A stretch of 64,000 bases of DNA from assembly GCF_014700075.1 (NCBI RefSeq), contig NZ_JACXBU010000001.1, positions 310,001 through 374,000 of the forward strand. The letters are read 5' to 3'. The DNA comes from Pseudomonas sp. JM0905a (GTDB lineage Bacteria > Pseudomonadota > Gammaproteobacteria > Pseudomonadales > Pseudomonadaceae). Both the position numbers and the translations under genes were made by a program. Below the pieces are notes generated by a model. The model searched no databases. It worked only from the letters and a program-made list of their open reading frames with translations, and was not told where the DNA came from. This document shows, one piece after another, positions 17,562 through 55,044 of the stretch (its first letter is position 1; each line of letters starts with the position of its first letter).

Positions 17562-17590
17562 TCTTCACTCGTTCGGACGAGGTAACCACC

Positions 17591-18538
17591 ATGCAAATCA
17601 AACTCGCCAACCCTCGCGGCTTCTGCGCCGGCGTCGATCGCGCCATCGAGATCGTCAACCGTGCCCTCGAGGTGTTTGGTCCGCCGATCTACGTGCGCCA
17701 CGAAGTAGTGCACAACAAGTTCGTGGTCGAAGACCTGCGTTCTCGCGGTGCCGTGTTCGTCGAAGAACTCGACCAGGTGCCGGACAACGTGATCGTCATC
17801 TTCAGCGCCCACGGCGTTTCCCAGGCCGTGCGCCAGGAAGCCGCCCGCCGCGGCCTCAAGGTGTTCGACGCCACCTGCCCGCTGGTGACCAAGGTGCATA
17901 TGGAGGTCGCGCGCTACAGCCGCGATGGCCGCGAATGCATCCTCATCGGTCACGCCGGCCACCCGGAAGTGGAAGGCACCATGGGACAGTATGACGTCAG
18001 CAACGGCGGCGCCATCTACCTGGTGGAAGACGAGGCGGACGTCGAGCGGCTGCAAGTGCGCAATGCCGATGCCCTGTCGTTCGTCACCCAGACCACCCTG
18101 TCCATGGACGACACCAGCCGCGTCATCGATGCGCTGCGCGCCAAGTTCCCCAACATTGGCGGCCCGCGCAAGGACGACATCTGCTACGCCACCCAGAACC
18201 GCCAGGATGCGGTGAAGCAGCTTGCCCACGAAAGTGATGTGGTGCTGGTAGTCGGCAGCCCGAACAGCTCCAACTCCAATCGCCTGCGCGAACTCGCCGA
18301 GCGCATGGATACCCCGGCCTACCTGATCGACGGCGCAGAAGACCTCAAGCGCGAATGGTTCGACAACGTGAAGCGCGTCGGCATCACCGCCGGCGCTTCC
18401 GCCCCCGAGGTGCTGGTACAAGGTGTGATCGATCAGCTTCGGGAGTGGGGCGCCGAAGTCGCCGTCGAGCTGGATGGTCGACCGGAGAACGTGACCTTCT
18501 CCATGCCGAAGGAATTGCGGGTGGTCAACGTCGGGTAG
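17591..18538 (+). CDS. ispH: 4-hydroxy-3-methylbut-2-enyl diphosphate reductase
   Basis: The 315-residue iron-sulfur enzyme performs the last step of the MEP pathway, making IPP and DMAPP, the substrates that IspB in this window uses. The three cluster ligands are in [19 protein letters not shown] and [20 protein letters not shown] and the conserved THETE-like EGTMGQYD segment are also present. It is last in the ileS operon and ends convergently with a FimT-like gene 60 bases away. Confidence 0.96.
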
Positions 18539-18598: not shown

Positions 18599-19114
18599 TC
18601 AGCAGGAGCCCGGCGGTTGCTTGGCTCTGCGTACTCTCCCTGCTGCATTGATCACCAACTTCGTGACATGCGACTTGCCGTCGCTGCGGCAGAGAGTGAG
18701 TGTTCCGGCCTGAAAAGCACCTCCCAGCATGGTTGCCCTGCCTGTCGGTGTGTAACGGATGTAGCGCCTGACGGGCGAGTTACCCTTGATGACGACTCCC
18801 GCTGGTTGCGGGCCGATTTGCCTGATTAATACGTCGCTTTCGTCCCATCGCCCATTTCCATTCTGATCGGCATAGACCCACCAGCCGGTCGCCCAGTCTC
18901 CGTCCCGGTTGTCTACGAGGACGGCAACCTTCCTGAAGACAGACTCCTGCCGTGCAAGGGCGAGGCTTGAAGACAAAACCTGACTGGTTGCAGTCAGCTG
19001 TTGCGCCCTTATGAATCGAGTAAGCGACGGTGTCCCAAGGCCAATGCAAATGGCCAGGAGCGTGACGGCTACCAATAGCTCGATCAGGGTGAAACCGCGA
19101 GTATTCCCGGTCAT
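18599..19114 (-). CDS. GspH/FimT-family pseudopilin, module 1, divergent gene
   Basis: The 171-residue prepilin has the leader MTGNTRG and the N-methylation segment FTLIELLVAVTLLAICIGLGTP, so it is processed by prepilin peptidase (PilD, also in this window). The soluble part has the FimT/GspH layout: ALARQESVFRK, a WWVY(AD) strand, and an EF-hand-like loop DQNGNGRWDESD about 70 residues after the pilin helix. It reads opposite to the rest of module 1, with a 431-base intergenic region between it and pilE. It is probably a minor pilin of the same pilus; the mis-orientation is unusual. Confidence 0.82.
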   Translation of the reverse strand: MTGNTRGFTLIELLVAVTLLAICIGLGTPSLTRFIRAQQLTATSQVLSSSLALARQESVFRKVAVLVDNRDGDWATGWWVYADQNGNGRWDESDVLIRQIGPQPAGVVIKGNSPVRRYIRYTPTGRATMLGGAFQAGTLTLCRSDGKSHVTKLVINAAGRVRRAKQPPGSC

Positions 19115-19545
19115 GGCATCCTTGCCTTGATTGAAAGATCAACGGGATTTGCCTGTCATCCTTGGCCTTTGCCCGCTCGTCGCCGCTAAAAGGACCTGAA
19201 TGAGAACTGACCGTTAAGCTTCTGGAAATGAAAGAATTTCTCAAGGTCGCCTGTTCCTGAAAGCCGCAAAGAAAACTCTTGAAATTGGCGGCAGATCACT
19301 CTGCGTCGTACAGGAATGACGCATCCTGTATGTACGAATTCACTGGGATCACGCGTGGAGGGCCCGTTTACGCTGCCTTTGGTTGTAAGGCGAAAGCGTG
19401 AAGTGAACTGAGGTGAAGGTCGGATGAAGTTGCGACAGGAGTCGGAGGATGCAAAATGGCTGTAACTGAAGGATTTCCAATTGAACTTGGGATCAAGAAG
19501 TCAAATCAGGCATTCCTCCGGTCGTCAAACCAAGAAGGTGACTCA
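19115..19545. other. 431-base divergent intergenic region upstream of module 1
   Basis: The region is AT-richer than the core genes and has no convincing ORF of its own, other than the possible upstream start of pilE at 19456. CCGCTCGTC at 19173-19181 is one mismatch from the AlgR core CCGTTCGTC, which controls the fimU-pilE operon in P. aeruginosa. No clear sigma-70 promoter was found by eye. Confidence 0.4.
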
Positions 19546-19938
19546 GTGGGCAGAACAAAGCAGCGTGGTTTTACCCTCATCGAGCTTATGATCGTCGTCG
19601 CAATAGTTGCCATTCTGGCTGCAATTGCCTATCCCAGTTACCAGCAATATGTCATTCGCGGTAATCGTGCAGCCGCGCAGGCGCAGATGATGGATATCGC
19701 CAACCGTCAGCAGCAGTACCTCTTGGCGAATCGAACCTATGCAACCAAAGCACAGCTCGAGGCGAGCGGTTATGCACTGCCTACCGAGGTGGTTGGCCGA
19801 TATACCTATGACATCACAGTGGGCAGTGGCTCTGTGCCCAGTTTCACCATCACCTTCACAGCTACCGGCTCGCAGGTTAGTGATGGCAACTTGACCCTCG
19901 ATAATGAGGGCGAAAAGACCCCTTCTGGAAAGTGGTAG
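19546..19938 (+). CDS. pilE: Type IV minor pilin PilE-like, module 1
   Basis: The 130-residue prepilin starts at a GTG behind AAGAAGGTG, giving the leader MGRTKQRG and then [25 protein letters not shown] competing ATG at 19456 with GGAGG seven bases upstream would add 30 residues and make an unusually long leader. The globular part ends [20 protein letters not shown], the typical C-terminus of PilE-like minor pilins. It opens the plus-strand part of module 1, seven bases before pilV, and should help prime pilus assembly and form the tip complex with the genes that follow. Confidence 0.85.
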
Positions 19939-19945
19939 GTACCCT

Positions 19946-20518
19946 ATGAACCGCACACTTTCCTTGAGCTCTCAGCGTGGCGTGACCCTCATTGAGGTGC
20001 TGGTAACCATCCTGATTCTGTCGGTGGGGTTGCTCGGCATGGCGGGACTCCAGGTCCGATTGCAACAGTCGGAGATTGAGGCCTATCAGCGCGCCCAGGC
20101 TTTGTTGTTGCTTGATGACATGGCCAACCGCATCACCACCAATCGCAATGTGGCATCGAGTTACGTTACCGGCACAGCAACTCCTGTGGGAACGGGGATG
20201 ACCTGTGCAAGTGTGACCGGCTCTTCTTCGCGGCGCGACCGAGATATCAGCGAGTGGTGCAATACCTTGCAAGGTGCGGCAGAGACATCGGGTACGAGCA
20301 AGGTTGGCTCAATGGTAGGCGCGAGAGGGTGCGTGGAGTCGATTGGGAGCAACCAGTACCTGGTCACCATCGCCTGGCAAGGGTTGACACCGATTTCGGC
20401 TCCGCCATCTGGCGTGGCGTGCGGGGCCAATAGTTATGACGGTGCGACTGGGTCTACCTGCTCGGGTGACCTCTGCCGTCGTGTCATTACCACCATTGTG
20501 CGTGTCGCGGATCTATGA
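19946..20518 (+). CDS. pilV: Type IV minor pilin PilV-like, module 1
   Basis: The 190-residue prepilin has the leader MNRTLSLSSQRG and the helix VTLIEVLVTILILSVGLLGMAGLQ. The segment GLLGMAGLQ...ALLLLDDMANRI is diagnostic of PilV. There are seven cysteines in the soluble part. Its stop overlaps the pilW start (ATGA), implying translational coupling. It is a minor pilin of the tip/priming complex. Confidence 0.86.
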   Translation: MNRTLSLSSQRGVTLIEVLVTILILSVGLLGMAGLQVRLQQSEIEAYQRAQALLLLDDMANRITTNRNVASSYVTGTATPVGTGMTCASVTGSSSRRDRDISEWCNTLQGAAETSGTSKVGSMVGARGCVESIGSNQYLVTIAWQGLTPISAPPSGVACGANSYDGATGSTCSGDLCRRVITTIVRVADL

Positions 20519-21660
20519 GTGATATGAATTTGACTTTTCGCGGCATTGTGCCCGGACGCCTCAGTCGCAGCCGGCAGTCGGGATTCAGTCTTGTCGAATT
20601 GATGATCGCTGCCACCATCAGTTTGCTGATGATGGCAGCGATCTTGACACTCTTCCTTGATGTGTCGAGAACCAACGATGAAATGGCCAAGACCAATGCT
20701 CAGATCGAGAACGGTCGATTTGCGCTGCAACTGCTTCAGGATGATTTGTCCCATGCGGGCTTTTGGGGGGGCTACGTCCCGGATTTCGACGACCTGAGTA
20801 ACACAGAGACACCAGCTGAGGTGCCTGATGACGTGCCCAGTCCCTGCTCATGGGCTGCGGCAGATAACGCGAATTTCCTGGGCATCTCCGTTCAGGTGTA
20901 CGACGACGTGCCACCCGGATGCAGCGGCATAGTCACCGACAAGAAGGCGAACACCGACGTCCTGGTTGTCCGCCACGCGGAACCATGCCGTCCCGGTGTT
21001 GGCAATTGTGAAGCGGCAGATGCCACCAAGCTTTATTTCCAGCCATCTTTCTGCACGGACGATGCTGCGCGCTATGCGCTGGGTACCAGCGGTTTCACCA
21101 TGAGAAAAAGGGACTGCACCGCGCTTTCGGAGAAGCGAAAGTTCGTCTCCAACATTTATTACATTCGCGATCATTCAGTCACTGCAGGCGACGGCATTCC
21201 CACGCTCATGCGTTCCGAGTTCGGAGTTGGAGCGGCGCCAGAGGCGGCGAAGGCCCTTATTGAAGGTATCGAGGGGTTTCGGGTCGAACTCGGTATCGAC
21301 AGCGCCGGTGACAGTGGCGCGGTTAATGACTACACGGCAGCTGCCAGCTTTGCAGTGGATGCCAGTGGCGACACCAACTATTCACAACCACTCAATCGAG
21401 GTGATGGTGCGCCTGATGGTGACTTCGTGCGTTGCCCCGCCGCGGGCTGTTCGGTCGACCAACTCATAGACGTAGTCGCAGTAAAAGTTTTCCTGTTGGT
21501 GAGGAGCATTCAACCCTCGCCCGGTTACAGCGATGGCAAGACCTACGCCTTGGGCCAAGCTTCACCGGCCGCACAGGTGGTTGGTACCAACTACAAGCGT
21601 CATGTCTATTCAACCACTGTTCGGCTGGTCAATGTTTCAGGCCGGAGGGAAACCCCATGA
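20515..21660 (+). CDS. pilW: Type IV minor pilin PilW-like, module 1
   Basis: The 381-residue prepilin has a long leader ending RQSG followed by FSLVELMIAATISLLMMAAILTLFLD, and the PilW hallmark NGRFALQLLQDDLSHAGFWGG. A start three codons later (ATG 20524) is also possible. Overlaps at both ends, with pilV and pilX, are of the ATGA type. PilW is the largest minor pilin and is needed for tip complex assembly. Confidence 0.87.
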   Translation: MSDMNLTFRGIVPGRLSRSRQSGFSLVELMIAATISLLMMAAILTLFLDVSRTNDEMAKTNAQIENGRFALQLLQDDLSHAGFWGGYVPDFDDLSNTETPAEVPDDVPSPCSWAAADNANFLGISVQVYDDVPPGCSGIVTDKKANTDVLVVRHAEPCRPGVGNCEAADATKLYFQPSFCTDDAARYALGTSGFTMRKRDCTALSEKRKFVSNIYYIRDHSVTAGDGIPTLMRSEFGVGAAPEAAKALIEGIEGFRVELGIDSAGDSGAVNDYTAAASFAVDASGDTNYSQPLNRGDGAPDGDFVRCPAAGCSVDQLIDVVAVKVFLLVRSIQPSPGYSDGKTYALGQASPAAQVVGTNYKRHVYSTTVRLVNVSGRRETP

Positions 21661-22154
21661 CGATGAGTGCCGCGCGGCTCTATCAACAGGGCGCGACCCT
21701 GGTGATTGGGCTGATCATGCTGTTAATGCTTACGTTGCTGGTTGGTAGTGCGTTCACCATGAGTGGCGCCAGCCTCAAATCGGTCGGAAACATGCAGGCA
21801 CGTGACGAAGCGCTGGCGGCTGCCAATATCGCTACTGAACAGGTCATCAGTTCGCCGTTCACGGATAACCCGGATGACGAATCGATTGTTGTGGATATCA
21901 ACAACGATGGCGCCACCGATTACACCGTCGATATAGCTCAGCCTGTTTGCATCAGTGAAACCGAGCTGCCTGTAGTCGAAGAAGGTCACGAAAGCGGCGT
22001 GCGTGCCGGGGTGGTAGCGCCTGATTCCCAGTGGAGCACAGTCTGGGAACTGGTTGCGACAGTGACCGATCCTGCGAGTGGCGCATCCACGCGGGTCCGC
22101 TCGGGCGTACGGGTCCTGCTATCTGAGAGCGAAAAGGAAAGTGTGTGTCCGTAA
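21657..22154 (+). CDS. pilX: Type IV minor pilin PilX-like, module 1
   Basis: The 165-residue product has the PilX N-terminus (QQGATLVIGLIMLLMLTLLVGSAFTMSGASLKSVGNMQARDEAL), lacking Glu5 as PilX/GspK-type pilins often do. A dockerin- or EF-hand-like loop DINNDGATD lies at about residues 80-88, where calcium could bind. The ATG is behind GGAGGGAAACCCC and overlaps the pilW stop. It lies just upstream of pilY1, as in other pilus tip operons. Confidence 0.83.
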   Translation: MTMSAARLYQQGATLVIGLIMLLMLTLLVGSAFTMSGASLKSVGNMQARDEALAAANIATEQVISSPFTDNPDDESIVVDINNDGATDYTVDIAQPVCISETELPVVEEGHESGVRAGVVAPDSQWSTVWELVATVTDPASGASTRVRSGVRVLLSESEKESVCP

Positions 22155-22179
22155 TCAAGGCTTGTTTCGGGAGAGCACC

Positions 22180-25100
22180 ATGAGCTCTGGTTTCTTGAAG
22201 GGAATGGCGGCCGCTGCGGCCCTGACAGTTTGGCTACCTGTCCAGGCTGAGGATATCGATCTTTTCGTGAGCACTACGCCCACCTCCAACGATGTGCCGA
22301 ATGTGCTAATCGTGCTGGATAACACCGCCAACTGGAACAACGCCTTCTCTAATGAAATGACGGCGCTGAGCACAGTGCTGAGTGGCCTGGATCCTGATAA
22401 GTTTCGCGTTGGTCTGATGATGTTCACGGAAACTGGAGGGGGCAACTCGAATACGGATGGCGCATATGTGCGCGCAGCTATCCGATTGATGAATAGCGCC
22501 AACAAGACAAAGTATCAGCAGCTGATCCAGAGCCTGCATATCACCAACGATAAATCCAACGGTGGTAAGGCGGGCCTGGCGATGTGGGAGGCGTACCAGT
22601 ATTTCTCCGCTGGGGCTCCACATGCAGGCAATGGCAAGAACAAGTCAGACTATACCGGTAACAACTCCGGGACGACTGCCTCGAATGCCATCTATTCGAT
22701 TTCGGGGAATGCCCTTTCCTCCAAGAATGCCACTGTTTACAACACGCCAATTGCGTCCGGTTGCGCAAAGAACTTCATTATCTACATCAGTAACGGTGCA
22801 GCGCAGGATAACAACGCCGACATAACTGCAGGCACTGCGGCGCTGGCTGCCGCGGGAGGTAGCACGGCCACCATCCCGATTTCCCCCAGTGGTTCGCAGA
22901 ATAACGTGGCGGACGAGTGGGCGCGTTTCATGCGAGCGAGTGATCTTAATGTCAAGACTTATACGCTCGACGTGAACAAGGTCACCACAGGCCAGGGGCC
23001 TGGTTGGACTGCGCTGATGAAAAGCATGTCGAATGTAAGCGGGGGAAAGTACTTCGACGTGACCAGTACAGGATCGGAAATTGCGGACGCTCTAAACGCC
23101 GTATTCTCTGAAATCCAGCCCGTGAATAGCGCATTTGCTTCTGTCAGCCTACCTGTCAGTGTCAATACACAAGGTACTTACCTGAATCAGGTATTCATCG
23201 GGATGTTCCGGCCTGATGCGAACATGATGCCTAGGTGGATGGGCAATCTGAAGCAGTACAAGCTAGGCATTTCTGATGGTGCATTGCGATTGCAGGACGC
23301 CGACGGCGATACCGCCGTCAATACTTCGACCAACTTCATTACCCCATGTGCACGTAGTTACTGGACTCCTTCGACACTTGATAGTTACTGGTCGTATAGT
23401 GGTGAAGCCCAAGGCGCGTGCACCGAGATAACCAACTCGGGTAGCTCGAATAGCCCCGATGGCAATGTGGTTGAAAAGGGTGGTCAAGCTTATCTATTGC
23501 GAAATGAGGACGCGCGCTCTGTCTTCACCTGCGATCCCACCTTTGCTTCCTGTACGCAAATGACGGACTTCTCCTCCGGCAACTCCGCCATTTCGGCGAG
23601 TTTACTTGGGGTTTCTGCGACGGATGATCCAGCGGACTCAGATACGACCCCTGAGCGCACCGAATTGATCAATTGGGTGCGAGGCGTAGACCTTGATGAC
23701 GAAAATGGAGGCGGCGTAACTTCGGAAATGCGTCCATCCGTACATGGCGATGTGGTGCACTCCCGCCCAGTGGCTATCGACTACGGGACGACAGGGTCAC
23801 CTCAGGTTGTCGTTTACTATGGTGGCAACGATGGTGCATTCCGCGCGATCAATGGAAATCGAACCGCCAGTATTGGCTCAGGGACTTCGGCGGCCCCTGC
23901 CGGGAGCGAGCTTTGGTCATTCGTTCCTCCTGAGTTCTACGGAAAGCTCAACCGCCTTCGCGAAAACAGCTCGACCATCAGCTTCCAGGGCAGCGAGGGT
24001 GGTGAACCTAAGGATTATGGTATCGATGGGCCGATAACGGCATTTCGCGGCAGCATAAGCGGCACTCAGAAAACCTTTATCTACGCGGGAATGCGCCGAG
24101 GTGGGCGGGCCCTTTATGCATTTGACGTTACCAGTCCGACGAGCCCTGCACTGAAGTGGAAGATTGGTTGCCCGAACACGAATAACGATACGGGCTGCAG
24201 CACGGGCATGAGTGGTATTGGCCAGACCTGGTCTTCCGCCACGGTGCTCAACGCTTCGGGCTATGGTTCTGGCGCCTCGCCATTGCTGATCATGGGAGGT
24301 GGCTACGACACCTGCGAAGACGTTGATACCGGCACCGCCAACAACTCATGTACCAGCTCTAGCAAGGGCAATAAGATTTATGTGCTGGATGCCCAAACAG
24401 GCCAGCCGCTAAAGGTGCTGGATACCTTGAGGGGTGTAGTTGGTGATATCACCGTAGTGACGAACAGTTCGGGCCTTGCAACCTATGCCTATGCGGTTGA
24501 CCTTGGCGGGAATGTTTATCGGATCACTATTGGCGGTGCCGCGCCGGGAAGCTGGACAATCACCCGGATTGCAGCGCTGGGGTGCGATGATGGCGGAACT
24601 TGCAGTAGTAATCGGAAATTCATGTTTGCTCCGGAAGTCGTTTCTTCTGGCGGCAGCTACTTCCTTCAGATCGGCTCCGGGGATAGAGAAAAGCCGCTCA
24701 GCACATATGGTGCGACTGCTGCCGTTACCAACTTTTTCTTCAATATCAAGGATCGGCCGACTCAGTCTGACTGGCTGTCCACTGATACCTGTACGGGCGA
24801 TGTGATCTGCCTGGATTCATTGCTGGAGATTTCCGGTAGTTCCAATCCGACCCAGGCCGATCTGAACTCAAAACCCAAAGGTTGGCGCCTTGAACTGGCT
24901 TCCGCAGAGCAGGTCGTGACGTCGGCGGTCACTCTGTTCGGCCGGATTGTATTCAACACCCATGAACCGACGCCGCCTGATCCAGGTGCCTGTACGACGC
25001 TGGGAACAAACCGCGCCTATAACATTGCCTATACGGATGCATCCGGTCTGGATGAAGGGCGCTTCGTCGAAGTCGAAGGGGGAGGATTGTCACCCTCTCC

Positions 25101-25239
25101 CGTAGCAGGCGAGGTTGTATTGGATGATGGAACTAAACTGCCGTTCGTATGCACGATCGATTGTTTTAAGCCAGATCCTACCTTCAGCACCGTAACGCAG
25201 CCCAAAGGCCGGGTTTACTGGAGCATTGATCGAGAATGA
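22180..25239 (+). CDS. pilY1: PilY1-type pilus tip adhesin, module 1
   Basis: The 1019-residue secreted protein has a signal peptide (MSSGFLKGMAAAAALTVWLPVQA), an N-terminal von Willebrand A-like domain (about 40-330), and a C-terminal PilY1/PilC beta-propeller region (about 540-1000; FVPPEFYGKL, VDLGGNVYRI). The metal-site motif that should read DxSxS is D47-N-T-A-N51, so the MIDAS is degenerate. A DADGD loop lies in the middle part. It is shorter than the second PilY1 in this window and differs widely from it. GC in sampled stretches is about 55%, lower than the core genes. PilY1 proteins cap pili, promote extension and bind surfaces. Confidence 0.9.
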   Translation: MSSGFLKGMAAAAALTVWLPVQAEDIDLFVSTTPTSNDVPNVLIVLDNTANWNNAFSNEMTALSTVLSGLDPDKFRVGLMMFTETGGGNSNTDGAYVRAAIRLMNSANKTKYQQLIQSLHITNDKSNGGKAGLAMWEAYQYFSAGAPHAGNGKNKSDYTGNNSGTTASNAIYSISGNALSSKNATVYNTPIASGCAKNFIIYISNGAAQDNNADITAGTAALAAAGGSTATIPISPSGSQNNVADEWARFMRASDLNVKTYTLDVNKVTTGQGPGWTALMKSMSNVSGGKYFDVTSTGSEIADALNAVFSEIQPVNSAFASVSLPVSVNTQGTYLNQVFIGMFRPDANMMPRWMGNLKQYKLGISDGALRLQDADGDTAVNTSTNFITPCARSYWTPSTLDSYWSYSGEAQGACTEITNSGSSNSPDGNVVEKGGQAYLLRNEDARSVFTCDPTFASCTQMTDFSSGNSAISASLLGVSATDDPADSDTTPERTELINWVRGVDLDDENGGGVTSEMRPSVHGDVVHSRPVAIDYGTTGSPQVVVYYGGNDGAFRAINGNRTASIGSGTSAAPAGSELWSFVPPEFYGKLNRLRENSSTISFQGSEGGEPKDYGIDGPITAFRGSISGTQKTFIYAGMRRGGRALYAFDVTSPTSPALKWKIGCPNTNNDTGCSTGMSGIGQTWSSATVLNASGYGSGASPLLIMGGGYDTCEDVDTGTANNSCTSSSKGNKIYVLDAQTGQPLKVLDTLRGVVGDITVVTNSSGLATYAYAVDLGGNVYRITIGGAAPGSWTITRIAALGCDDGGTCSSNRKFMFAPEVVSSGGSYFLQIGSGDREKPLSTYGATAAVTNFFFNIKDRPTQSDWLSTDTCTGDVICLDSLLEISGSSNPTQADLNSKPKGWRLELASAEQVVTSAVTLFGRIVFNTHEPTPPDPGACTTLGTNRAYNIAYTDASGLDEGRFVEVEGGGLSPSPVAGEVVLDDGTKLPFVCTIDCFKPDPTFSTVTQPKGRVYWSIDRE

Positions 25240-25784
25240 TCCGGATATCCATGAAGTTGAATTGGATGGGTGGCGCCGCGCGGCGCTATTCATCTGGGTT
25301 CACGCTGATCGAGCTGATGGTTACCCTTGCGGTATTGGCCGTGTTGATCGGAATTGCCGTTCCTTCTTTCACGGATGTGACGCTGGGTAGCAAGCTTCGG
25401 GGGCAGGCCAACGACTTGGCTGCAGGTGCCGCGGTGGCGCGAAGCGAGGCGGTCAAGCGCAATCAGAGCGTAACCCTGTGTGCTTCGTCTAACGGGACGA
25501 CTTGCGCATCGTCCGGCGGATGGCAGCAGGGATGGATTGTCCGGAGTTCCGGCGGCGTTGTTGTGCAGACCCATTCGGCCGCGCCGAGCGGATTTATTAT
25601 TGCCGATACAGGTGCCGATGACGCGCATAGCATCAGTTTTTTACCCACTGGCCTCGCGTCGGCTGCAATCGAGCTGAAGATATGCCGCTCTTCGCCGGAA
25701 GCCGGTGACCAGGAACGCTTGGTCAGGATCAGCATGACCGGGCGGACATACGTAACCAAGACGACCACGGGTGACTGTTCCTAG
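25236..25784 (+). CDS. GspH/FimU-family pseudopilin, module 1
   Basis: The 182-residue prepilin has FTLIELMVTLAVLAVLIGIAVPSF after a roughly 21-residue leader ending YSSG, then the GspH/FimT pattern (DLAAGAAVARSEAVKRNQSVTLCAS, GWQQGWIV). The stop of pilY1 overlaps its ATG (ATGA); an ATG at 25251 would give a shorter leader. It closes module 1 and, with the divergent gene at 18599, gives the module two GspH-type proteins. No PilY2 homologue was seen at either PilY1 locus. Confidence 0.82.
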   Translation: MIRISMKLNWMGGAARRYSSGFTLIELMVTLAVLAVLIGIAVPSFTDVTLGSKLRGQANDLAAGAAVARSEAVKRNQSVTLCASSNGTTCASSGGWQQGWIVRSSGGVVVQTHSAAPSGFIIADTGADDAHSISFLPTGLASAAIELKICRSSPEAGDQERLVRISMTGRTYVTKTTTGDCS

Positions 25785-25977
25785 CCGGTGCATTCTTTGC
25801 ACAGTCGTCCGACGCAATTCCTCCTCTCCCTGCCTTAGAATCCCCTCGCCAGGTGCGGAGTTTGTTCCCGCACCCTGGCGCTGCGTTCAAATCGTAGATG
25901 CGTCGCTTGCGTGCGACAGCCTTTACAGGCTGTCGCCGACGGCGTTGCACGGGTGTTCCTGTTGTTCTGGAGGTTTC

Positions 25978-27069
25978 ATGCGCGTTTTGCTGGTCGGAGG
26001 GGGGGCTATCGGGTTGCTGTCTGCATACTCGCTGGCGCAGGCAGGGGCTGAAGTCTGCTTGCTGGACAAGGGAGAGTGCGGGCGCGAGTCCTCTTGGGCT
26101 GGCGGAGGCATCGTCTCCCCTCTCTATCCCTGGCGATACTCCTCCGCCGTGACGGCGCTGGCCCATTGGTCCCAGGACTACTACCCGGGTCTGGGGCAGC
26201 GTCTGTTCGCCGAGACCGGTATAGACCCCGAAGTCCATGAAACTGGCCTGTATTGGCTGGATCTGGATGACGAGGAGGAGGCGTTGGCCTGGGCCGCGCG
26301 CGAGGGCCGACCGTTGTCGCCGGTTGCGATGGATCAGGTGCACGCTGCTGTGCCTCCGTTGGGGCCGGGGTATGCGCGGGCAATCTATATGGCTGGCGTG
26401 GCCAATGTGCGCAATCCGCGCCTGACCCGGGCGTTACGGGAAGCCCTCTTGCAGATGCCGAATGTTTCCTTGCGCGAGAACTGTGAGGTGCGCGGTTTCA
26501 TCCGCGACGGCGGGCGCATTCTTGGCGTGAACACGGCTGAAGGCGATCTGTTGGCCGATCAAGTCGTCCTTGCGGCCGGCGCCTGGAGTGGTGAGCTGCT
26601 GGCCAGCCTCGGGCTGGTGCTGCCCGTGGAGCCGGTCAAGGGCCAGATGATTCTTTTCAAATGCGCGCCGGATTTCCTCCCCGCCATTGTGCTGGCCAAG
26701 GGGCGTTACGCGATTCCGCGTCGCGATGGTCATATCCTGGTGGGCAGCACCCTGGAACACGCCGGCTTCGACAAGGCGCCAACGGACGAAGCCCTGGAAA
26801 GCCTGAAGGCTTCTGCCTTCGAGTTGTTGCCGCAACTGGCGGATGCCGAATTGGTAGGGCACTGGGCGGGGCTGCGTCCAGGGTCGCCGGAAGGGATTCC
26901 CTTCATCGGGCCGGTGCCCGGAGTGGATGGTCTCTGGCTCAACTGCGGCCACTACCGCAACGGGTTGGTACTGGCGCCTGCCTCCTGCCAATTGCTGGCG
27001 GACCTTCTCCTTGGCCGGGAGCCCGTCATCGACCCGCAGCCCTATGCGCCCAAGGGCCGTTTGGGCTGA
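25978..27069 (+). CDS. thiO: ThiO-type glycine oxidase / FAD-dependent amine oxidase
   Basis: The 363-residue flavoprotein has the FAD-binding GGGAIGLLSAYSLAQAGAEVCLLDKGE at the N-terminus and the DAO fold (GAWSGELLASLGL; VEPVKGQMI; GSTLEH; GLRPGSPEGIPFIGPVPG; NCGHYRNGLVLAP). ThiO oxidises glycine to dehydroglycine for the thiazole of thiamine. The family also includes D-amino-acid oxidases, so specificity is inferred. The ATG follows CTGGAGGTTTC. It lies alone between the two pilin modules; P. aeruginosa has the homologue PA4548 between pilR and fimT (recalled). Confidence 0.88.
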   Translation: MRVLLVGGGAIGLLSAYSLAQAGAEVCLLDKGECGRESSWAGGGIVSPLYPWRYSSAVTALAHWSQDYYPGLGQRLFAETGIDPEVHETGLYWLDLDDEEEALAWAAREGRPLSPVAMDQVHAAVPPLGPGYARAIYMAGVANVRNPRLTRALREALLQMPNVSLRENCEVRGFIRDGGRILGVNTAEGDLLADQVVLAAGAWSGELLASLGLVLPVEPVKGQMILFKCAPDFLPAIVLAKGRYAIPRRDGHILVGSTLEHAGFDKAPTDEALESLKASAFELLPQLADAELVGHWAGLRPGSPEGIPFIGPVPGVDGLWLNCGHYRNGLVLAPASCQLLADLLLGREPVIDPQPYAPKGRLG

Positions 27070-27118
27070 CCGCATCCTGATGCCCTCGTAGGTATCGTGC
27101 GCTTCGCTGTGCCCCTTT

Positions 27119-27146
27119 GAGCTTGCCCATTCTTGTGGGCAAGCTC
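27119..27146 (+). terminator. Hairpin downstream of thiO
   Basis: Perfect 11-base stem GAGCTTGCCCA/TGGGCAAGCTC with a six-base loop, 50 bases after the thiO stop. No T-run follows, so it could be a repeat-type hairpin rather than a terminator. Confidence 0.5.
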
Positions 27147-27328
27147 GCAGATCGTAAAACCCAATTTAAAACGAACGTCCCACTCAGCTACTATTCGCGC
27201 ACAATTTGCCGCTGGTCGTGAAATTCGACCGCTTGTCATGGATGTCTGGCAAAGCTGGAGCAGGAAGCTTCGTTGCGCGGGCACTCGCCCGCTCGAGTTC
27301 GCACCGTTTAGTTTGGGAGGGGCAGGGA

Positions 27329-27796
27329 ATGTCGCAGCGAGGTTTTACGCTGATCGAACTGCTGGTCACGCTAGCCGTGCTCGTGGTTCTGATCGGCCTG
27401 GCAGCACCGAATCTCTCCCAATTGCTTCGCAACAGTCGGGCGTCAGCGGAGTTGAGCGCGTTTTCCGACATGCTCAACTATGCGCGGCGCGAAGCCGTGC
27501 AGGGCGCGCAGACGATCAGGGTGCGCGGGCCGCTGGCCGCCGACGGCGCATGGCAGGTGCTGCGCGAGCGTGATAGTCAGGAGTTGCGGCGGTTCACGCC
27601 GCTGTCTTTGTTCGCAGTCGAGCCCGAAGGGTTGCAAAGTGTCCTCTTCGACTCTCAGGGACGCCTGTTGAGTGCCGCCAGGGTGAATCTCGATCTAGCG
27701 GTAAAGGACTCCAGCCTCGATTGCGCTGCCTTTAATCGCACGATCTCTATCGAACTGTCCGGGTCGATCTCCCAGCAGAAGGGGGATTGCCAATGA
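27329..27796 (+). CDS. fimT: FimT/FimU-family minor pilin, module 2
   Basis: The 155-residue prepilin has the leader MSQRG and FTLIELLVTLAVLVVLIGLAAPNLSQLL, then the FimT pattern ELSAFSDMLNYARREAVQ. The ATG lies behind a GGGAGGGGCAGGG tract. FimT and FimU are close relatives and P. aeruginosa has both; here only one gene opens the module, so the symbol is a best guess. Its stop overlaps pilV. Confidence 0.82.
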   Translation: MSQRGFTLIELLVTLAVLVVLIGLAAPNLSQLLRNSRASAELSAFSDMLNYARREAVQGAQTIRVRGPLAADGAWQVLRERDSQELRRFTPLSLFAVEPEGLQSVLFDSQGRLLSAARVNLDLAVKDSSLDCAAFNRTISIELSGSISQQKGDCQ

Positions 27797-28230
27797 AATT
27801 CGGATTTCAGCGTGGGGCCTCTCTGATAGAGGTCCTGGTCGCGCTGGTGCTCTTCTCAATAGGTGTTCTGGGGCTCGCGGCCATGCAGCTCACCGCGCTG
27901 AAGGCCAATCAGACGGCATCCGTACGCACTCACGCAATCTTCCTGGCCTATGAGATGGCGGACCGGATGCGTGCGGCGCGCGGGGATGCGCAGGCCGGGT
28001 TTTACAACCTGGCAATTGGCGCCGAGTTGCCTTGCGACCCAGCGAGTGAGACTTGCCTGCCGTTCCAACGAGACCTGGCGGAGTGGCGGGCCAACCTGGC
28101 GCGGCAACTGCCCGACGGGAATGGCGGAGTCACGCAGAACGGTGACCGTTTCACGGTCGTCGTGCAATGGAACGAAGAGAGGGTAGGTGGAAGCAACGCC
28201 CAGCAATTCTCATTCGTCACGCAGATTTGA
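27793..28230 (+). CDS. pilV: Type IV minor pilin PilV, module 2
   Basis: The 145-residue prepilin has the leader MKFGFQRG and ASLIEVLVALVLFSIGVLGLAAMQL, with the PilV segment THAIFLAYEMADRMRAAR. The start overlaps the fimT stop (ATGA). It is 45 residues shorter than the module 1 PilV and has only two cysteines (DPASETC). Probable tip complex component. Confidence 0.86.
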   Translation: MKFGFQRGASLIEVLVALVLFSIGVLGLAAMQLTALKANQTASVRTHAIFLAYEMADRMRAARGDAQAGFYNLAIGAELPCDPASETCLPFQRDLAEWRANLARQLPDGNGGVTQNGDRFTVVVQWNEERVGGSNAQQFSFVTQI

Positions 28231-28240
28231 CGGGGTGCGC

Positions 28241-29272
28241 ATGCGCAAGCAACACGGCTTGAGCCTGGTGGAACTGATGGTGGCCATGGCACTTGGCCTG
28301 GTTATCAGCCTGGCAGTGCTCCAAGTATTCATCAGCAACAAAAATACCTTTCTGCTCCAGGGAGCGGCCGGCCACTTGCAGGAGAATGGTCGTTTCGCTC
28401 TTCAGTACCTGGCTGCTGAATTACGTCCTGCAGGCGTGGGGGTAGGAACCCGGCTCGATGAAGAGGATATCTGCGTGGTCGCCAGTAACGGAACCGCAGC
28501 GGAATGGGGTTCGATGAATCGCCCGATCTGGGGCAAGCGTAACGCTGCGGCTGGCGGATTGGGCGCAGTGGGCACCGACGAACTGTCTATCTTCGCCAAC
28601 GACGGCTGCGAGTCCTTCCTCACCGCCGGCGAGCTTCTCAAGCCCGGGCAGAACGCAAATCTCAAGGTCACGGCCTATTGCCCGAGCATGCAGAAAGATC
28701 ATGCGGTGATGGTGTTGGACATGGAAAAGGCAGTGATCGTCCGCATAACCAACAAGCCGAATTCATCCGGCTCCGGTCAAGTGACCCTTACCCATGCCGC
28801 TGGCAACAACGATAAGAACGCCAAGTGCGGTGGCTTCAAGTTTTCCGATATCCAGTTCACCAGTCCGGCGCGGGTGGTGGGGTTCGCTCATAAGACCTTC
28901 TACGTTGCCGATACCGGCCGTACCTCGGTGACTGGGCAGCCGGTCCGCGCCCTGTTTGTCCGCGACACGGCGCAGGTTCCGGTGCAGACCAATGAGGTCA
29001 TCGAGGGTGTGGAGTCCCTGCGCACTAGCTTCGGTGTCGCGGCGGGCAACAATGTGGGCGTTCAGGCCTACCTGAGTCCTACCGAGGTAGAGGCGGCCAA
29101 CCGCTGGCGCGATGTCCGTACGGTGAAGTTCGATCTGTTGTTGGTCAGCGAGGAACGGGTTACAGGGGCGCAGGACCAGGCCATCCAATTCGGTGGCACG
29201 ACGGTGGCGGCCGATGGGCGACTGCGCCAGGTATTCAGCACGGTAGTAGCCCTGCGCAATCGGATCGACTGA
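28241..29272 (+). CDS. pilW: Type IV minor pilin PilW, module 2
   Basis: The 343-residue prepilin has the leader MRKQHG and LSLVELMVAMALGLVISLAVLQVFIS, then the PilW hallmark QENGRFALQYLAAELRPAG. A GTG two codons upstream is also possible. It ends with VVALRNR, the common PilW C-terminus. It lies 10 bases after pilV and 10 before pilX. Confidence 0.87.
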   Translation: MRKQHGLSLVELMVAMALGLVISLAVLQVFISNKNTFLLQGAAGHLQENGRFALQYLAAELRPAGVGVGTRLDEEDICVVASNGTAAEWGSMNRPIWGKRNAAAGGLGAVGTDELSIFANDGCESFLTAGELLKPGQNANLKVTAYCPSMQKDHAVMVLDMEKAVIVRITNKPNSSGSGQVTLTHAAGNNDKNAKCGGFKFSDIQFTSPARVVGFAHKTFYVADTGRTSVTGQPVRALFVRDTAQVPVQTNEVIEGVESLRTSFGVAAGNNVGVQAYLSPTEVEAANRWRDVRTVKFDLLLVSEERVTGAQDQAIQFGGTTVAADGRLRQVFSTVVALRNRID

Positions 29273-29282
29273 CAAGACAAGG

Positions 29283-29801
29283 ATGAATATGCACGAGCAA
29301 AAAGGGGCGGTGCTGCTGGTCTGCCTGATTGCAATCCTGGCCTTGACCGTGCTCGGGGTGACGGCGATGTCCAGTAGCACCCTGCAAGAGCGCATGGCCG
29401 GTGGCGCCCGGGATTACAACGTGGCGTTCCAGGCGGCGGAAAGCGCGCTGCGGGTCGGCGAGGCCTATGTACGTCAGCAGGTGGAGGCCAGCGTCGATCC
29501 GGCCCAACTCTTCCAGGCAAGCACTGATTGTCCTGCTGTGACAGACGCACAGTGGTCACCTCCGGCTGAGCTCAATGCCAAACCTCAGCAACCGGACTGC
29601 CGGGTGCGCAGTTTCTACGGCGCCTCGGGTGGGGCGAACTCCTTCATTTGCGAAACCGATGGTTCGATTGCCGAGAACCGCGCCTTCGACTGCCTGAGTC
29701 GAACGTATCTGTTCAATGTCGAAGCCACCGGATACGGCAGCGGGGACGCTGAAGTACACCTGCGCTCCACCGTGGCCATTGCCATTCGCAGCCAGAACTG
29801 A
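29283..29801 (+). CDS. pilX: Type IV minor pilin PilX, module 2
   Basis: The 172-residue product has the PilX N-terminus KGAVLLVCLIAILALTVLGVTAMSSSTLQERMAGGARD and the PilX motif FQAAESALRVGE. It begins with two close ATGs (29283, 29289); the first follows AAGG. It is immediately upstream of pilY1, and in P. aeruginosa PilX and PilY1 are co-dependent. Confidence 0.86.
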   Translation: MNMHEQKGAVLLVCLIAILALTVLGVTAMSSSTLQERMAGGARDYNVAFQAAESALRVGEAYVRQQVEASVDPAQLFQASTDCPAVTDAQWSPPAELNAKPQQPDCRVRSFYGASGGANSFICETDGSIAENRAFDCLSRTYLFNVEATGYGSGDAEVHLRSTVAIAIRSQN

Positions 29802-29817
29802 TCGAAGGGAGACGCAA

Positions 29818-32800
29818 ATGATCAGGTCGAAAATCCTATTTGCGGTACGGGTAATGGTGGCCGGTCTGCTGACCGCTGGCATTAGCCATAGCGCCCTGGC
29901 GGCCTTCGTGCCGTCGCAGGTTCCTTTGAACCTGGGCGGCCAGGTCGAGCCGAACCTGATGTTCATCCTGGACGATTCCGGGTCGATGCGCTGGGGCTTT
30001 CTGCCGGACGATCTGAAGCCTTCCTACCTCGAGCGCACAGGCGATTGGTACGAGCGCAAGGAATGCACGGGGCGGGGTGCGTACGCCGGTAACAATCTGC
30101 ATTTCTGCCCCAAGAGCGGTCATCGTTACCTGGCCTCCAGCCACCTGAACAAGTCCTACTACAACCCGTCCGTGCAGTACCTGCCGCCAATCAAGAGCGA
30201 CGGGCAGCGCTACGCCAATGCGAGCTTCTCGGCCGCATACGTGGATGGTTATGCGGGAGGACAGACGGTCAACCTCGGCAGCAACTACATGGCGATCATG
30301 GACGACTATTTTTCGCCCAGCAGCTATGAGTGCCTCAACAAACGCTGCAGCAACGTGGAGTACTACAACGGTTTCGCCGTAGGGGCGGCAACTGGCGGGG
30401 TTGCTGCGTTCTATTTCGACTACGTTGGCGGGGGCTCCTGCTCCAGCAATCCGCGTCAGGACGCCTGCTATACCGAGCGCAGTGTGGGGGCGGCCGAGCA
30501 GCAGAACTTTGCCAACTGGTTCTCCTATTATCGCAGCCGCATGATGTCGGCCAAGGCCGGTGTAAGCCAGGCGTTTTCGGGGTTGTCCGGCGACGTCCGG
30601 GTAGGCTACGGCGCGATCAACGTGACAGGACAAAGCGTTGACGGCGGCTCCACTGACACCTTGGTGCGAGGCGTAAGGCGTTTCGAGGGTAGTGGTCGCT
30701 CCGAGTTCTACAATTGGCTGTTCGCCGCCTCGGCTTCTGGGGGCACGCCATTGCGCCGGGCCCTGGGGGATGCCGGTGAGTACTTCTCCCGCACTGACGC
30801 CTCAGGACCGTGGAGTTCGACTCCCGGTCAGGCGGGAGGCAAGGAGTATTCCTGCCGCCAGAGCTACACGATTCTGACCACCGACGGCTACTGGAACAAC
30901 GATGCCGCTTCCAAAAAAGCGGCGCGTGCGAATGTGGACAACAGCAACGGCCCGGTGATCAGTGGACCGGATGGGGAGTCCTACCGTTACGTGCCAAAGT
31001 CCCCATTCAGCGACAGTCAGAAAGACACCTTGGCTGACGTTGCCATGTATTACTGGAGCCGCGACCTGCATTCCGACCTGGCCAACCGGGTGCCGACCGA
31101 TCCGTCCGATCCCGCATTCTGGCAGCACATGGTGACCTTTGGCGTGGGCCTGGGGATGAGTGGGACCATCGACCCGAAAACAGCTTTCGCTGCAATTGGC
31201 ACCGGTGCTTCCGTGACCTGGCCCGACCCGGCCAGTAGCGAGCCGGCCAAGCTGGATGATCTGTTGCACGCGGCAGTGAACAGTCGGGGTGGTTTTTTCA
31301 GTGCCCAGGACCCGCAACAGTTCGCCACAGCGCTGGGCGATACCCTGGCCTCGATTGCCGACCGCACCGGGTCGAATACCTCGGCAGTACCCAACGCTCG
31401 TCGCCTGGACAGCAATACCTTGGTCTATGAGGCGTTCTATAGCAGTGCAGACTGGTCCGGCAAGTTGCTGGCCAAACGTCCGACACAGACCAGTGCTGGG
31501 GTGGTATTCAAGGAAGTGTGGGAGGCAGGGCGGAAGTTGGGCACAGGTACACGTAGCCTGTTCACCCATGACGGCGCCGCAGGCAGGGACCATGGCGTAG
31601 CCCTGAGCTGGGGTGACCTGTCGACTGACCTCAAGGCTCGCTTCGACAACAATGAGGCGCTGTTCAACTACCTGATGGGCAGCCGCGCCAACGAGGCGCC
31701 GGCCGGGCTGAAGTACCGAAATCGTTCGACCTTGCTCGGCGATATCGTCAACTCCACCCTGGTGCTCGCCAACAAGCAGGACTGGGGCTTCCATGGCCGC
31801 GTGCCAGTGCCGAGCGATGGGCAGAGCTATGCGCAGTTCGTTGCTGCCAAGGCAAGCAAGGCGCCGGTGCTGTTCGTCGGCGCCAACGACGGATTCCTGC
31901 ATGCTTTCAACGCCAACGACGGCAACGAGCTCTTCGGCTACATGCCCAGTGGCGTGCTGGATAACGTCAAACTCCTGGCTAACAGCGATTACAAGCACCG
32001 CTACTTTGTGGATGGCAAGCTGCATATCCGTGATGCCCGTCTGAACGACGAGTGGCGAACCGTGCTGCTCGGCAGCCTGGGAGCAGGTGGGAAGACTGTC
32101 TTCGCCCTCGACGTTACCGATGTCTCCACCAGTGGTTTTGGAGCCAGCAAGGTGCTCTGGGAGATCAAGGACGACGCTGACCTGGGCTATAACTTCGGCG
32201 AACCGCTGGTTGGGCGCATGAAGGATGGCAGCTGGGCGGCCATCTTCGGCAATGGCTACGGCAGCACCAATGATGACTCCGTACTGTTCATCGTCGATCT
32301 GGCTACTGGCGCGGTGAACAAGGTCCGCGCAGGAACCTCCACCGGCGGTCTTTCCAGCCCGTCGTTCGTGTACGCCACAGACGACGCCGGCAATATCTAT
32401 GTGCAGGACGTTTATGCCGGTGACCTCAACGGTAACCTTTGGAAATTCAACCTGAAGAGCAATGGTTCCGGCGTTGGTGATTTCGAGGTCAGCCTGAAGT
32501 CAGGCAACAAGCCGCAGCCGCTGTACGTGGCGGCCAATGCCCAAGGCACGCGCCAACCCATCACCGTCAAGCCGGAGATCGCCTACCATCCGGACGGCGA
32601 GGCCAAAGGTGCGGTGGTCTACTTTGGCACCGGGCGCCTGTATAGCTCGGGAGATGTCGTGGATCTGGGCACGCAGACCATCTATGGGATCTGGGACAAG
32701 AAGGCCAGCAGTGGTTCCTCCATCGCCTTTACGGGTCGCTCGGCGCTCGAATCACGATCAATCCTTCTTGAGGGTAAAGCGTTCTCACGTGATGTCAGGG

Positions 32801-33270
32801 TCGTGGATGCGCCGGCCAATGGCCTGGATTGGACCACCAAGCGGGGCTGGTACCTCGACTTGGCCTCACCGTCTCTGGGGGCCCAGGGCGAGCGGATGAT
32901 CTTCTCCCCGCGCATTCTGCTCAATCGCCTGGTCGTCGAGACTGCCATCCCGTCCTCCGATCCCTGCCAGGCCGGCGGCTCCGGCTGGACAATGGTGCTC
33001 GACATGGCTACCGGCGGGCGGCTCAACTACGTCTTGCTGGACCTGAACAAGGACGGCAAGTTCACCGAAGCCGATATGGTCGACGTCGATGGGCAGAAGC
33101 TCCCGCCGTCCGGTATCGGCTCCACGGGCAGCATACCCACCGGTTCGTTCGACTTGATCGACCCGCAGAAATATTGGCTTTGCCGCGGTACCGGGGTGGA
33201 CGATTGCATTCCTGCAGCCAATACCTTGAACGTGCTGGAAGGCCGCCAGTCCTGGAACCAGATTCGATGA
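29818..33270 (+). CDS. pilY1: PilY1-type pilus tip adhesin, module 2
   Basis: The 1150-residue secreted protein has a signal peptide ending near SALA, a von Willebrand A domain with an intact MIDAS start D52-D-S-G-S56, and the C-terminal PilY1/PilC beta-propeller (about 640-1130; [34 protein letters not shown]). A textbook 12-residue EF-hand loop, [12 protein letters not shown], lies at 1075-1086. In P. aeruginosa, calcium binding by PilY1 regulates pilus extension and retraction. The ATG follows GAAGGGAGACGCAA. Its stop overlaps pilE. Confidence 0.92.
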
Positions 33271-33683
33271 AGAACAGCAAGGCGTTCACGCTGATTGAAC
33301 TGATGATCGTGGTGGCTGTGATCGGCATACTCGCTGCAATTGCCTATCCCAGCTACACGGAGCACGTGCGACGCGGGAAGCGGGCCGAAGCCAAGGCCGC
33401 CCTGATGGAGGGCGCGCAGGCATTGGAGCGCTATTACTCCACCCACAGCTCCTACCTGGATGCCAACGGGAATTTCGCTGCCGTTTTTGCCACACAGACG
33501 CCAGCTTCGGGGGCGGCCAACTTCACCCTTGCCGCTCAAGGGACGGCGACCGCAACCACCTTCCAGCTGCGGGCCACCCGAACCGGCAGCATGGCGGGTG
33601 ACCCGTGCGGCGACTTCCAGATCAGCCACACCGGTGCGCGCACGCTGGCCAATGCGACGCGCACCGTGGCCGAGTGCTGGTAG
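33267..33683 (+). CDS. pilE: Type IV minor pilin PilE, module 2
   Basis: The 138-residue prepilin has the leader MKNSKA and [24 protein letters not shown]. Position -1 is Ala rather than the usual Gly, which prepilin peptidases tolerate less well. The soluble part has the PilE pattern [27 protein letters not shown] and two cysteines near the end (DPCGDF, AECW). It overlaps the pilY1 stop (ATGA) and closes module 2. Confidence 0.86.
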
Positions 33684-33789: not shown

Positions 33790-35127
<1,338 letters not shown>

Positions 35128-35129
35128 GG

Positions 35130-52345: not shown

Positions 52346-52953
52346 GGCTGGCCTCCTCGCAGGGTCAGGTAGAAATTGTGCAGGCGCTCCACCTCGGCGC
52401 GCAGCCAATCCAGGCCGCGGTCGTTGAGCAGTACGTCGTGGGCGTGCTTGAGGCGCTCTTCACGACTGGCCTGGACCTTCAATATGGCTTGGACCTGCTC
52501 TTCGGGCACTTTGTCCCGCTGCATGGTGCGCTGGATTTGCATGGATTCCGGGGCATCCACCAGCAGGACCCGCTGGGTGAGGCGATGCTGGCCGGACTCG
52601 ATCAGCAGCGGCGAGACGAGAATTGCGTATGGCGACTCGGCGCGCGCCAGGTACTGGCTGATCTCCTGGCCAATCAGCGGGTGCAGCAGGCTTTCCAGCC
52701 AGCGACGCTCATCCGCGTTCTCGAAGATGCGCTGGCGCAGGGCTGCGCGATCAAGCTGGCCGTCCGCCTGCAGCACTTCACTGCCGAAGTGCTCGGCGAT
52801 CTTCGCCAGCGCGGGGCGACCGGGCTCCACTACCCAGCGTGCGGCCTGGTCGGCGTCTACCAGATGCACACCAAGGTCGCTGAAATGGGCGGCTACGGCG
52901 CTCTTGCCGCTACCGATGCCGCCTGTGAGGCCAAGGATCCAGGGTTTGTTCAT
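52342..52953 (-). CDS. coaE: Dephospho-CoA kinase
   Basis: The 203-residue P-loop kinase makes the last step of coenzyme A synthesis. Walker A is GGIGSGKS near residue 10; [13 protein letters not shown] and [10 protein letters not shown] are the typical CoaE core. It overlaps the pilD stop by four bases and the yacG start by four bases, forming pilB-pilC-pilD-coaE-yacG on the minus strand. Confidence 0.96.
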
Positions 52954-53822: not shown

Positions 53823-53824
53823 GG

Positions 53825-55042: not shown

Positions 55043-55044
55043 GC

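Follow-up and report, generated by a model that had tools for sequence, protein, structure and literature searches.

Two tandem minor-pilin/PilY1 modules in Pseudomonas sp. JM0905a: a conserved pilus-tip set beside a slot whose cassette appears to be exchanged

Introduction

The pilus tip decides what bacteria adhere to and sense, and a question of interest is which of its parts can be interchanged. We address it at a locus of Pseudomonas sp. JM0905a, in a stretch of 64,000 nucleotides (the window; contig NZ_JACXBU010000001.1, positions 310,001 to 374,000) in which the interval between ispH and pilR holds two full minor-pilin/PilY1 modules with thiO in the middle. P. aeruginosa presumably carries its fimU operon in the same chromosomal neighbourhood, with the same ispH/thiO gene order, and we take it to have one set at this position. 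The window strain belongs to the P. resinovorans group, for which we assume the genus name Metapseudomonas, and its closest named ThiO is that of Pseudomonas sp. BN411 (95%). What, then, are two complete tip sets doing side by side? The reading that we favour, and consider probable, is that a constant resident tip encoded by module 2 and an exchanged tip cassette, module 1, work on one PilB/PilC/PilA machine.

Module 1 and module 2 vary in contrasting ways

When the window was compared with BN411 in 250-base bins, identity was 91-98% over positions 16000-18499, 84-97% across thiO and 94-98% across module 2, whereas it fell to 57-74% over fimT and its promoter and to 17-56% over the remainder of module 1. 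The edges are sharp: identity drops at the ispH stop (18538) and recovers at the thiO start (about 25980), leaving flanks of about 95% on both sides of a slot whose PilY1 is about 41% identical. Module 1 of the window runs pilE, pilV, pilW, pilX, pilY1, fimU on the plus strand, the minus-strand fimT adjoining ispH, whereas the BN411 cassette, which is likewise complete, runs pilE, fimU, pilV, pilW, pilX, pilY1 (its genes were named by Pfam, PilV and PilY1 by weaker or pairwise matches). Module 2 of the window has the order fimU, pilV, pilW, pilX, pilY1, pilE (27329-33683). The GC content is 55.6% in module 1, 61.1% in module 2 and 63.8-64.9% in the flanks.

A midpoint-rooted PilY1 tree of 87 rows, from which 8 rows of six duplicate loci (L093, L095, L098, L102, L106, L108) had been removed beforehand, united module 2 of the eight genus genomes that carry both modules, together with that of locus L018, in one clade. 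For module 1 the same tree grouped the window with BN102, BN411 with G024, a genome of another genus, and G011 with G033/G061. (Presumed names of numbered genomes are G094, BN411; G131, BN102; G062, DSM 21078; G078, P. boanensis; G141, P. taiwanensis xwS3; G040, P. alcaligenes MRY13-0052.) Because this tree warned of long branches, we repeated the key question with 21 chosen rows, P. boanensis being excluded as a long branch, under a mixture model with approximately unbiased (AU) tests. These rejected both a sister relationship of the window and BN411 module 1 PilY1 proteins (log-likelihood difference, dlnL, 919) and a single clade of the eight module 1 PilY1 proteins (dlnL 972). The BN411 cassette does match that of G024, at 78-80% DNA identity over nearly its whole length, and the latter is found elsewhere in the chromosome, next to an EAL phosphodiesterase and close to a leucyl aminopeptidase, at a site where G024 differs from its own congeners in cassette type and strand.

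Module 2 PilY1, in contrast, is 81-99% identical in 28/28 pairs of the eight genomes. Module 2 is thus congruent among these relatives and, by sequence, looks vertically inherited, whereas module 1 has been replaced and appears to be an exchangeable cassette in a slot; this contrast between the two slots is the new point. Exchange at the ispH-thiO slot, as judged from the alignments, extends beyond this clade: over 60 slot loci, slot PilY1 was under 60% identical in 23 of the 52 pairs whose ThiO proteins are 88-99.9% identical, a count weakened by pairs that share members and by the prior removal of the six duplicate loci.

The deepest split of the 87-row tree places PilY1-1 (module 1) and PilY1-2 (module 2) on opposite sides. 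A recent tandem duplication is ruled out, as the two proteins are not nearest relatives; a reading made from the sequence alone had already argued that the modules are no recent duplication, and had named mutual closest relationship of the two PilY1 proteins as a sign against itself, which the tree did not show.

One pilus machine and two tip sets

Both modules contain FimU, PilV, PilW and PilX with prepilin-type N-termini, PilX being recognised through PF14341, plus PilY1, and thereby the parts of a type IVa pilus (T4aP) priming module. The sequence-only reading had placed two complete modules between ispH and pilR with thiO between them, and the genes lie where it put them, with Pfam and NCBIfam PilV matches above cut-off.

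Genome-wide, the window strain has two matches each to PilY1 (PF05567) and PilW (PF16074) and one to the major pilin family (PF00114). The eight T2SSF domain matches are read as one PilC, one GspF like that of a type II secretion system (T2SS) and two pairs like those of Tad systems; the second of two PilB relatives at E <= 1e-100 (47%) is T2SS-like; and one of three prepilin peptidases (PF01478) adjoins pilC. The T2SS-like and Tad-like assignments are based on gene size, pairing and identity. From these family counts it follows that the claim of one PilA, PilB, PilC and PilD set holds for the T4aP machine, with a single PF00114 match, one T4aP PilB and PilC each and one PF01478 match beside pilC. 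A second T4aP machine serving the second module was not found in the genome, the other motors looking like one T2SS and two Tad sets; the Tad-like pairs lie at G000:C22:562k and C40:214k (G000 is the window genome), and a prepilin peptidase is no more than about 11 kb away from each of them.

The genome therefore pairs a single major pilin and a single T4aP motor with two complete modules, as in the multi-tip arrangement of Myxococcus xanthus, and that one T4aP machine works with both tip sets is a plausible and economical reading of the counts. In M. xanthus, cells form pili with only cluster 1 or only cluster 3 of PilY1 and minor pilins (PMC7541494), and tip complexes with different PilY1 proteins work on one machine with regulated PilY1 choice (PMC9109919, PMC7541494).

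PilA varies independently of the tip modules

Across the 17 genus relatives, PilA is 32-55% identical to that of the window. G062 and G086 share 96% of PilY1-1 and 98% of PilY1-2, yet only 35% of PilA beyond the first 25 residues, while G086 and G028 have 92% identical PilA with unlike tip modules. PilA varies independently of the tip modules, and fibre and tip are loosely coupled.

Beside pilA, 57805-59469 encodes a PglL/Wzy-like ligase, and the encoded PilA C-terminus is CK, not serine; in P. aeruginosa, pilin is glycosylated by TfpO.

Distribution among relatives

Both modules occur in the same order in 8 of the 18 genus genomes (G000, G094, G011, G131, G136, G122, G062, G086; in G062 across two contigs), for which reason we reject an assembly accident. 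In G078, module 1 is present as far as thiO, where the contig stops, and the genome gives no PilY1-2 match; the other nine have a single module oriented opposite to thiO, the PilY1 of one, G052, being a 41% relative of PilY1-2. Among 80 ThiO loci, ispH and thiO were both visible in 71, with two PilY1 genes in 2, one in 38 and none in 31; a third locus with two PilY1 genes, L018, is without ispH. Many P. putida-like slots (L041-L044, L046, L048, L049 and similar) have only about 2-3 kb between ispH and thiO and no recognised PilY1, and a metagenome-assembled Pseudomonas (L040:100-2300) has short plus-strand pilV, pilW, pilX and pilE relatives without PilY1 adjoining a full minus-strand module.

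By hand count, 81 of 198 family genomes have at least two PF05567 matches, a figure that split matches may inflate and missed divergent PilY1 proteins deflate: in G188 PF05567 gives one match, yet a module-1-type PilY1 is present elsewhere, and the BN411 PilY1-1 has no Pfam match at 0.001. G009, G033, G077 and G093 hold a module-1-type cassette in the slot and have a single PF05567 match each, so this type can probably serve a T4aP alone.

Other sites also hold such cassettes. G141 has an additional one at another locus, and in genus g9 a second home lies near a CSS-EAL phosphodiesterase and leucyl aminopeptidase (L116, L117, L119-L122, L124, L131), where the cassette of L131 is of a different type and strand; further sites are found in the vicinity of RnfC (L113, L114, L126) or of a cytochrome d1 protein (L115, L118, L125). 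In G154, of another genus (locus L157), the order is ispH, module 1, module 2, thiO, with PilY1-2 at 73%, and L018 likewise has both module types in tandem ahead of thiO (module 1, module 2, thiO), which suggests that the pair, or module 2, moved as a unit. The window strain is not alone in its two-module arrangement, and M. xanthus is an established case of several tips on one machine.

Adhesin domains and promoter regions of the two modules

PilY1-1 is a divergent family member (PF05567 40.5 bits vs 197.3 for PilY1-2). PilY1 of the P. aeruginosa type has a von Willebrand factor A (vWA) domain with a metal-ion-dependent adhesion site (MIDAS), DxSxS...T...D (PMC8806160). PilY1-2 has these residues (DDSGS, TDG), whereas PilY1-1 has DNTAN and SNG in their place; among rows of the PilY1-1 type, 22 of 23 have DN(T/S)xN, and among those of the PilY1-2 type, 8 of 9 have DDSGS, the remaining one having been missed by the search pattern. 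A propeller loop, acidic in many PilY1 proteins and taken here to be their Ca-binding site, is absent in PilY1-1 (TNSSGLATY), altered in PilY1-2 and acidic in BN411 module 1 (DRNRDGLAD). Both C-terminal propellers resemble 3hx6, PilY1-2 with a phmmer E of 4.8e-82 and a Foldseek target TM-score (TMt) of 0.76, PilY1-1 with 2.9e-10 and 0.60, and 3hx6 is the best fold match of both structure models. Further down the matches of the PilY1-1 model, a vWA domain (8fzu) stands at rank 32; for PilY1-2, whose model is poor in its N-terminal part, no vWA-titled entry stood among the top 50 fold matches listed. The models are of moderate confidence (mean predicted local distance difference test, pLDDT, 68.5 for PilY1-1 and 66.4 for PilY1-2) and were used only as support for domain identity.

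Upstream of both modules, CCG(C/T)(T/C)(C/T)GTC is found in 8/8 tandem genomes. The box resembles an AlgR site, but upstream of module 1 only the window and BN411 have it with no more than one mismatch to the consensus, and a site this close is expected by chance in about 5-19% of such regions; the pattern is absent from the other nine slot loci scanned. Common AlgR control of both modules is suggestive at best. A scan for sigma-70 promoters and terminators gave nothing beyond chance.

These features bear on the full version of the sequence-only reading, in which the two tips alternate for different surfaces under separate transcriptional control. We regard this as unlikely, if the least so of the alternatives. 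The promoter regions are separate, differently built and conserved, the two adhesin domains differ in their MIDAS residues, and regulated PilY1 choice is known from M. xanthus (PMC9109919); the similar box at both promoters in 8/8 tandem genomes, if real, would instead favour common control, near chance level as it is in each region.

Selection and an interrupted module

Nei-Gojobori-type counts of nonsynonymous to synonymous change (dN/dS) gave 0.07-0.09 for PilY1-1 against five relatives with the same cassette type, a rough figure, and 0.05-0.12 for PilY1-2 against seven relatives; values against G078, saturated pairs and PilX1 against BN411 (0.53, a 35% pair) were not used. At the codon level, these ratios show purifying selection on both modules. 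In-frame stops in some relatives were due to extra residues ahead of the true start and disappeared with the correct start.

An inactivating mutation of one module in another isolate, which the sequence-only reading had named as a sign against itself, does exist. In P. resinovorans DSM 21078 (G062), an IS66-family element of 2360 bases, common to two contig ends (L014:1-2360, L099:1-2360), splits module 1 fimU, and when its flanks are placed on the relative G086 they share about 9 bases, which is what a target duplication would leave, the adjacency of the contigs being our reconstruction. The shared ends and the short overlap point to a real insertion.

Such damage would fit an intermediate of turnover, in which module 2 was gained and module 1 became dispensable, drifting, swapped and sometimes broken without consequence. 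The far greater variability of module 1 would fit it too, as would G078, whose lack of a PilY1-2 match means that the pair is not fixed. Module 1 genes are, however, otherwise present in the clade genomes and under purifying selection where not saturated, and the incoming cassette of BN411 has all its genes, a completeness that neutral decay would not preserve; we consider turnover quite improbable.

FimT and FimU

A C-terminal GRxR marks the DNA-binding FimT (PMC8897410). The minus-strand gene at 18599-19114, of the GspH/FimT family, ends in GRVR, and the tails of FimU1 and FimU2 lack GRxR, so the locus has two FimU and a single FimT. The gene that opens module 2, which the sequence-only reading had labelled FimT, is accordingly FimU-like, and the minus-strand gene is the FimT, a putative DNA receptor. 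The motif is present in the slot FimT proteins of 9/9 clade genomes examined, P. boanensis included.

The locus could thus be imagined to divide labour as in Xylella, one set serving twitching and surface binding and the other, with the neighbouring FimT, DNA uptake. FimT with its GRxR tail (motif PMC8897410) adjoins module 1 in 9/9 clade slot loci examined, and the Xylella paralogue sets show mostly opposite phenotypes (PMC9956873), but a FimT relative adjoins the slot in single-module genomes too, so that its position does not point to module 1, and we hold such a division to be decidedly unlikely. That minor pilins of both modules combine in one complex, the second set adding parts, is very unlikely: the two sets are homologous and would share the machine, but each cassette moves as a whole and brings its own FimU-PilV-PilW-PilX-PilY1, as cognate partners would be expected to do.

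Features of the locus

Several starts were refined from the open reading frame list (PilV1 19946, PilX1 21657, PilY1-1 22180, FimU2 27329, PilW2 28241, PilY1-2 29818, PilE2 33267; Table 1). No pilY2 was seen, there being no room for it between pilY1-2 (stop 33270) and pilE2 (start 33267).

Table 1. Features of the two-module locus and of the pilus machine genes, in window coordinates.
Feature	Position	Strand	Remarks
ispH	17591..18538	+	left border of candidate exchange slot; window/BN411 identity 0.83-1.0 (30-base steps, 18300 to stop), then 0.03-0.23 over next 60 bases
fimT (GspH/FimT), putative DNA-receptor minor pilin	18599..19114	-	ispH side of slot; PF12019 68 bits; C-terminal GRVR
Divergent fimT/pilE promoter region	19115..19455	.	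conserved blocks; AlgR-like CCGCTCGTC at 19173, suggestive only
Module 1 PilE-like minor pilin	19456..19938	+	PF16732 62.8 bits, PF07963
Module 1 PilV	19946..20518	+	TIGR02523 68 bits (cut-off 52.2)
Module 1 PilW	20515..21660	+	PF16074 82.1 bits
Module 1 PilX	21657..22154	+	PF14341 28.3 bits (cut-off 25.5)
Module 1 PilY1 (PilY1-1, 1019 aa)	22180..25239	+	PF05567 40.5 bits; vWA-like N-terminus without MIDAS residues; propeller without acidic loop
Module 1 FimU	25236..25784	+	PF12019 69.3 bits; GspH without C-terminal GRxR
thiO	25978..27069	+	right border of slot, divider of modules; PF01266 248.8 bits; BN411 identity climbs to 0.93-1.0 at 25980-26069
Module 2 promoter region	27070..27328	+	blocks conserved in 8 genomes; AlgR-like CCGCTTGTC at 27229, suggestive only
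Module 2 FimU	27329..27796	+	PF12019 30.4 bits; no GRxR
Module 2 PilV	27787..28230	+	TIGR02523 96.3 bits
Module 2 PilW	28241..29272	+	PF16074 64.4 bits
Module 2 PilX	29283..29801	+	PF14341 47.1 bits
Module 2 PilY1 (PilY1-2, 1150 aa)	29818..33270	+	PF05567 197.3 bits; vWA start with DxSxS (DDSGS) and TDG; canonical propeller
Module 2 PilE-like minor pilin	33267..33683	+	PF16732 82 bits; start overlaps pilY1-2 stop
pilR	33790..35172	-	bounds module 2 on the right; 95-98% identity with 7 genomes of the clade
pilD, pilC, pilB	52950..56751	-	T4aP machine genes
pilA	57011..57523	+	sole PF00114 match in genome

Discussion

In the reading that we favour, each module would encode a full T4aP priming and tip complex, with FimU, PilV, PilW and PilX forming a short stem, PilE, and PilY1 as the tip adhesin, and both complexes would be used by the single PilB/PilC/PilA machine on the same kind of pilus. 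Module 2 (27329-33683) would be the resident tip of the clade, passed on vertically, and the vWA domain of its adhesin would bind metal through the MIDAS. Module 1 (pilE to fimU, 19456-25784, with fimT adjoining) would be the present occupant of an ispH-thiO exchange slot in which whole cassettes, very different in sequence and even in gene order, take each other's place; the probable route is uptake of DNA followed by recombination within the conserved flanks. The variable tip would then change what the pilus binds.

Several points weigh against this reading, besides the shared members in the count of slot pairs. The dS of module 1 PilY1 is 1.2-2.5, saturated against BN411, G011 and G078, which makes its dN/dS rough; the IS66 element in DSM 21078 means that module 1 can be damaged in a cultured strain with module 2 intact; and the pair is not universal near the clade, as G078, which has module 1, gives no PilY1-2 match. 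Some divergent PilY1 proteins escape PF05567, so genomes with a single match could hide a second, and either of the two strains, that of the window or BN411, may be the one that switched its cassette.

The closest parallel is M. xanthus, which likewise has several complete FimU-PilV-PilW-PilX-PilY1 clusters (clusters 1-3) with one major pilin and one T4aP machine (PMC7541494), and whose PilY1.3 has been suggested to be horizontally acquired (PMC13190605). Its clusters are separate, however, whereas the window modules lie side by side at the P. aeruginosa position, one slot repeatedly replaced and the other conserved. P. aeruginosa has one module, fimU-pilVWXY1Y2E, with pilY2 (PMC4064291), in contrast to the window, which has two modules and no pilY2 and so departs from the single ispH-thiO module of that operon. 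Its strains do vary, with minor pilin alleles of PAO1 and PA14 that are 61-75% similar (PMC5979040) and two PilY1 clades in 852 genomes (PMC8806160), but such strain alleles differ far less than do the slot cassettes of the window and BN411, whose PilY1 proteins are about 41% identical and whose genes stand in another order. Xylella fastidiosa likewise has two minor-pilin sets and several PilY1 genes, mostly as operons in two regions, with paralogues that differ in phenotype, but it has three PilA and three FimT where the window genome has one PF00114 pilin, and no exchange slot is described in the part of PMC9956873 that was available. Neisseria PilC1 and PilC2 are likewise two PilY1-family proteins in one strain (PMC13190605), but phase-varying paralogues and not two complete minor-pilin sets as in the window strain.

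We found no literature on tandem modules or an ispH-thiO exchange slot in Pseudomonas, in a search that most subscription papers lay outside. Giltner et al. 2011, reportedly on the Pseudomonas pilin island, may hold part of it.

The window strain and BN411 form a close natural pair that differs in one tip cassette (and in PilA) but is nearly identical in the other cassette, the motor and the flanks. That PilA alleles and tip cassettes are loosely linked bears on the view that major pilins need specific cognate minor pilins (PMC9956873). We tentatively extend the favoured reading to the family, as a possibility somewhat short of probable: ispH-thiO of Pseudomonadaceae may be a dedicated slot for whole-tip replacement, the P. 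resinovorans clade may have a two-slot design, and the cassettes may be self-contained adapters that fit many PilA alleles. If so, tip specificity would evolve through module exchange and not through mutation, independently of the fibre.

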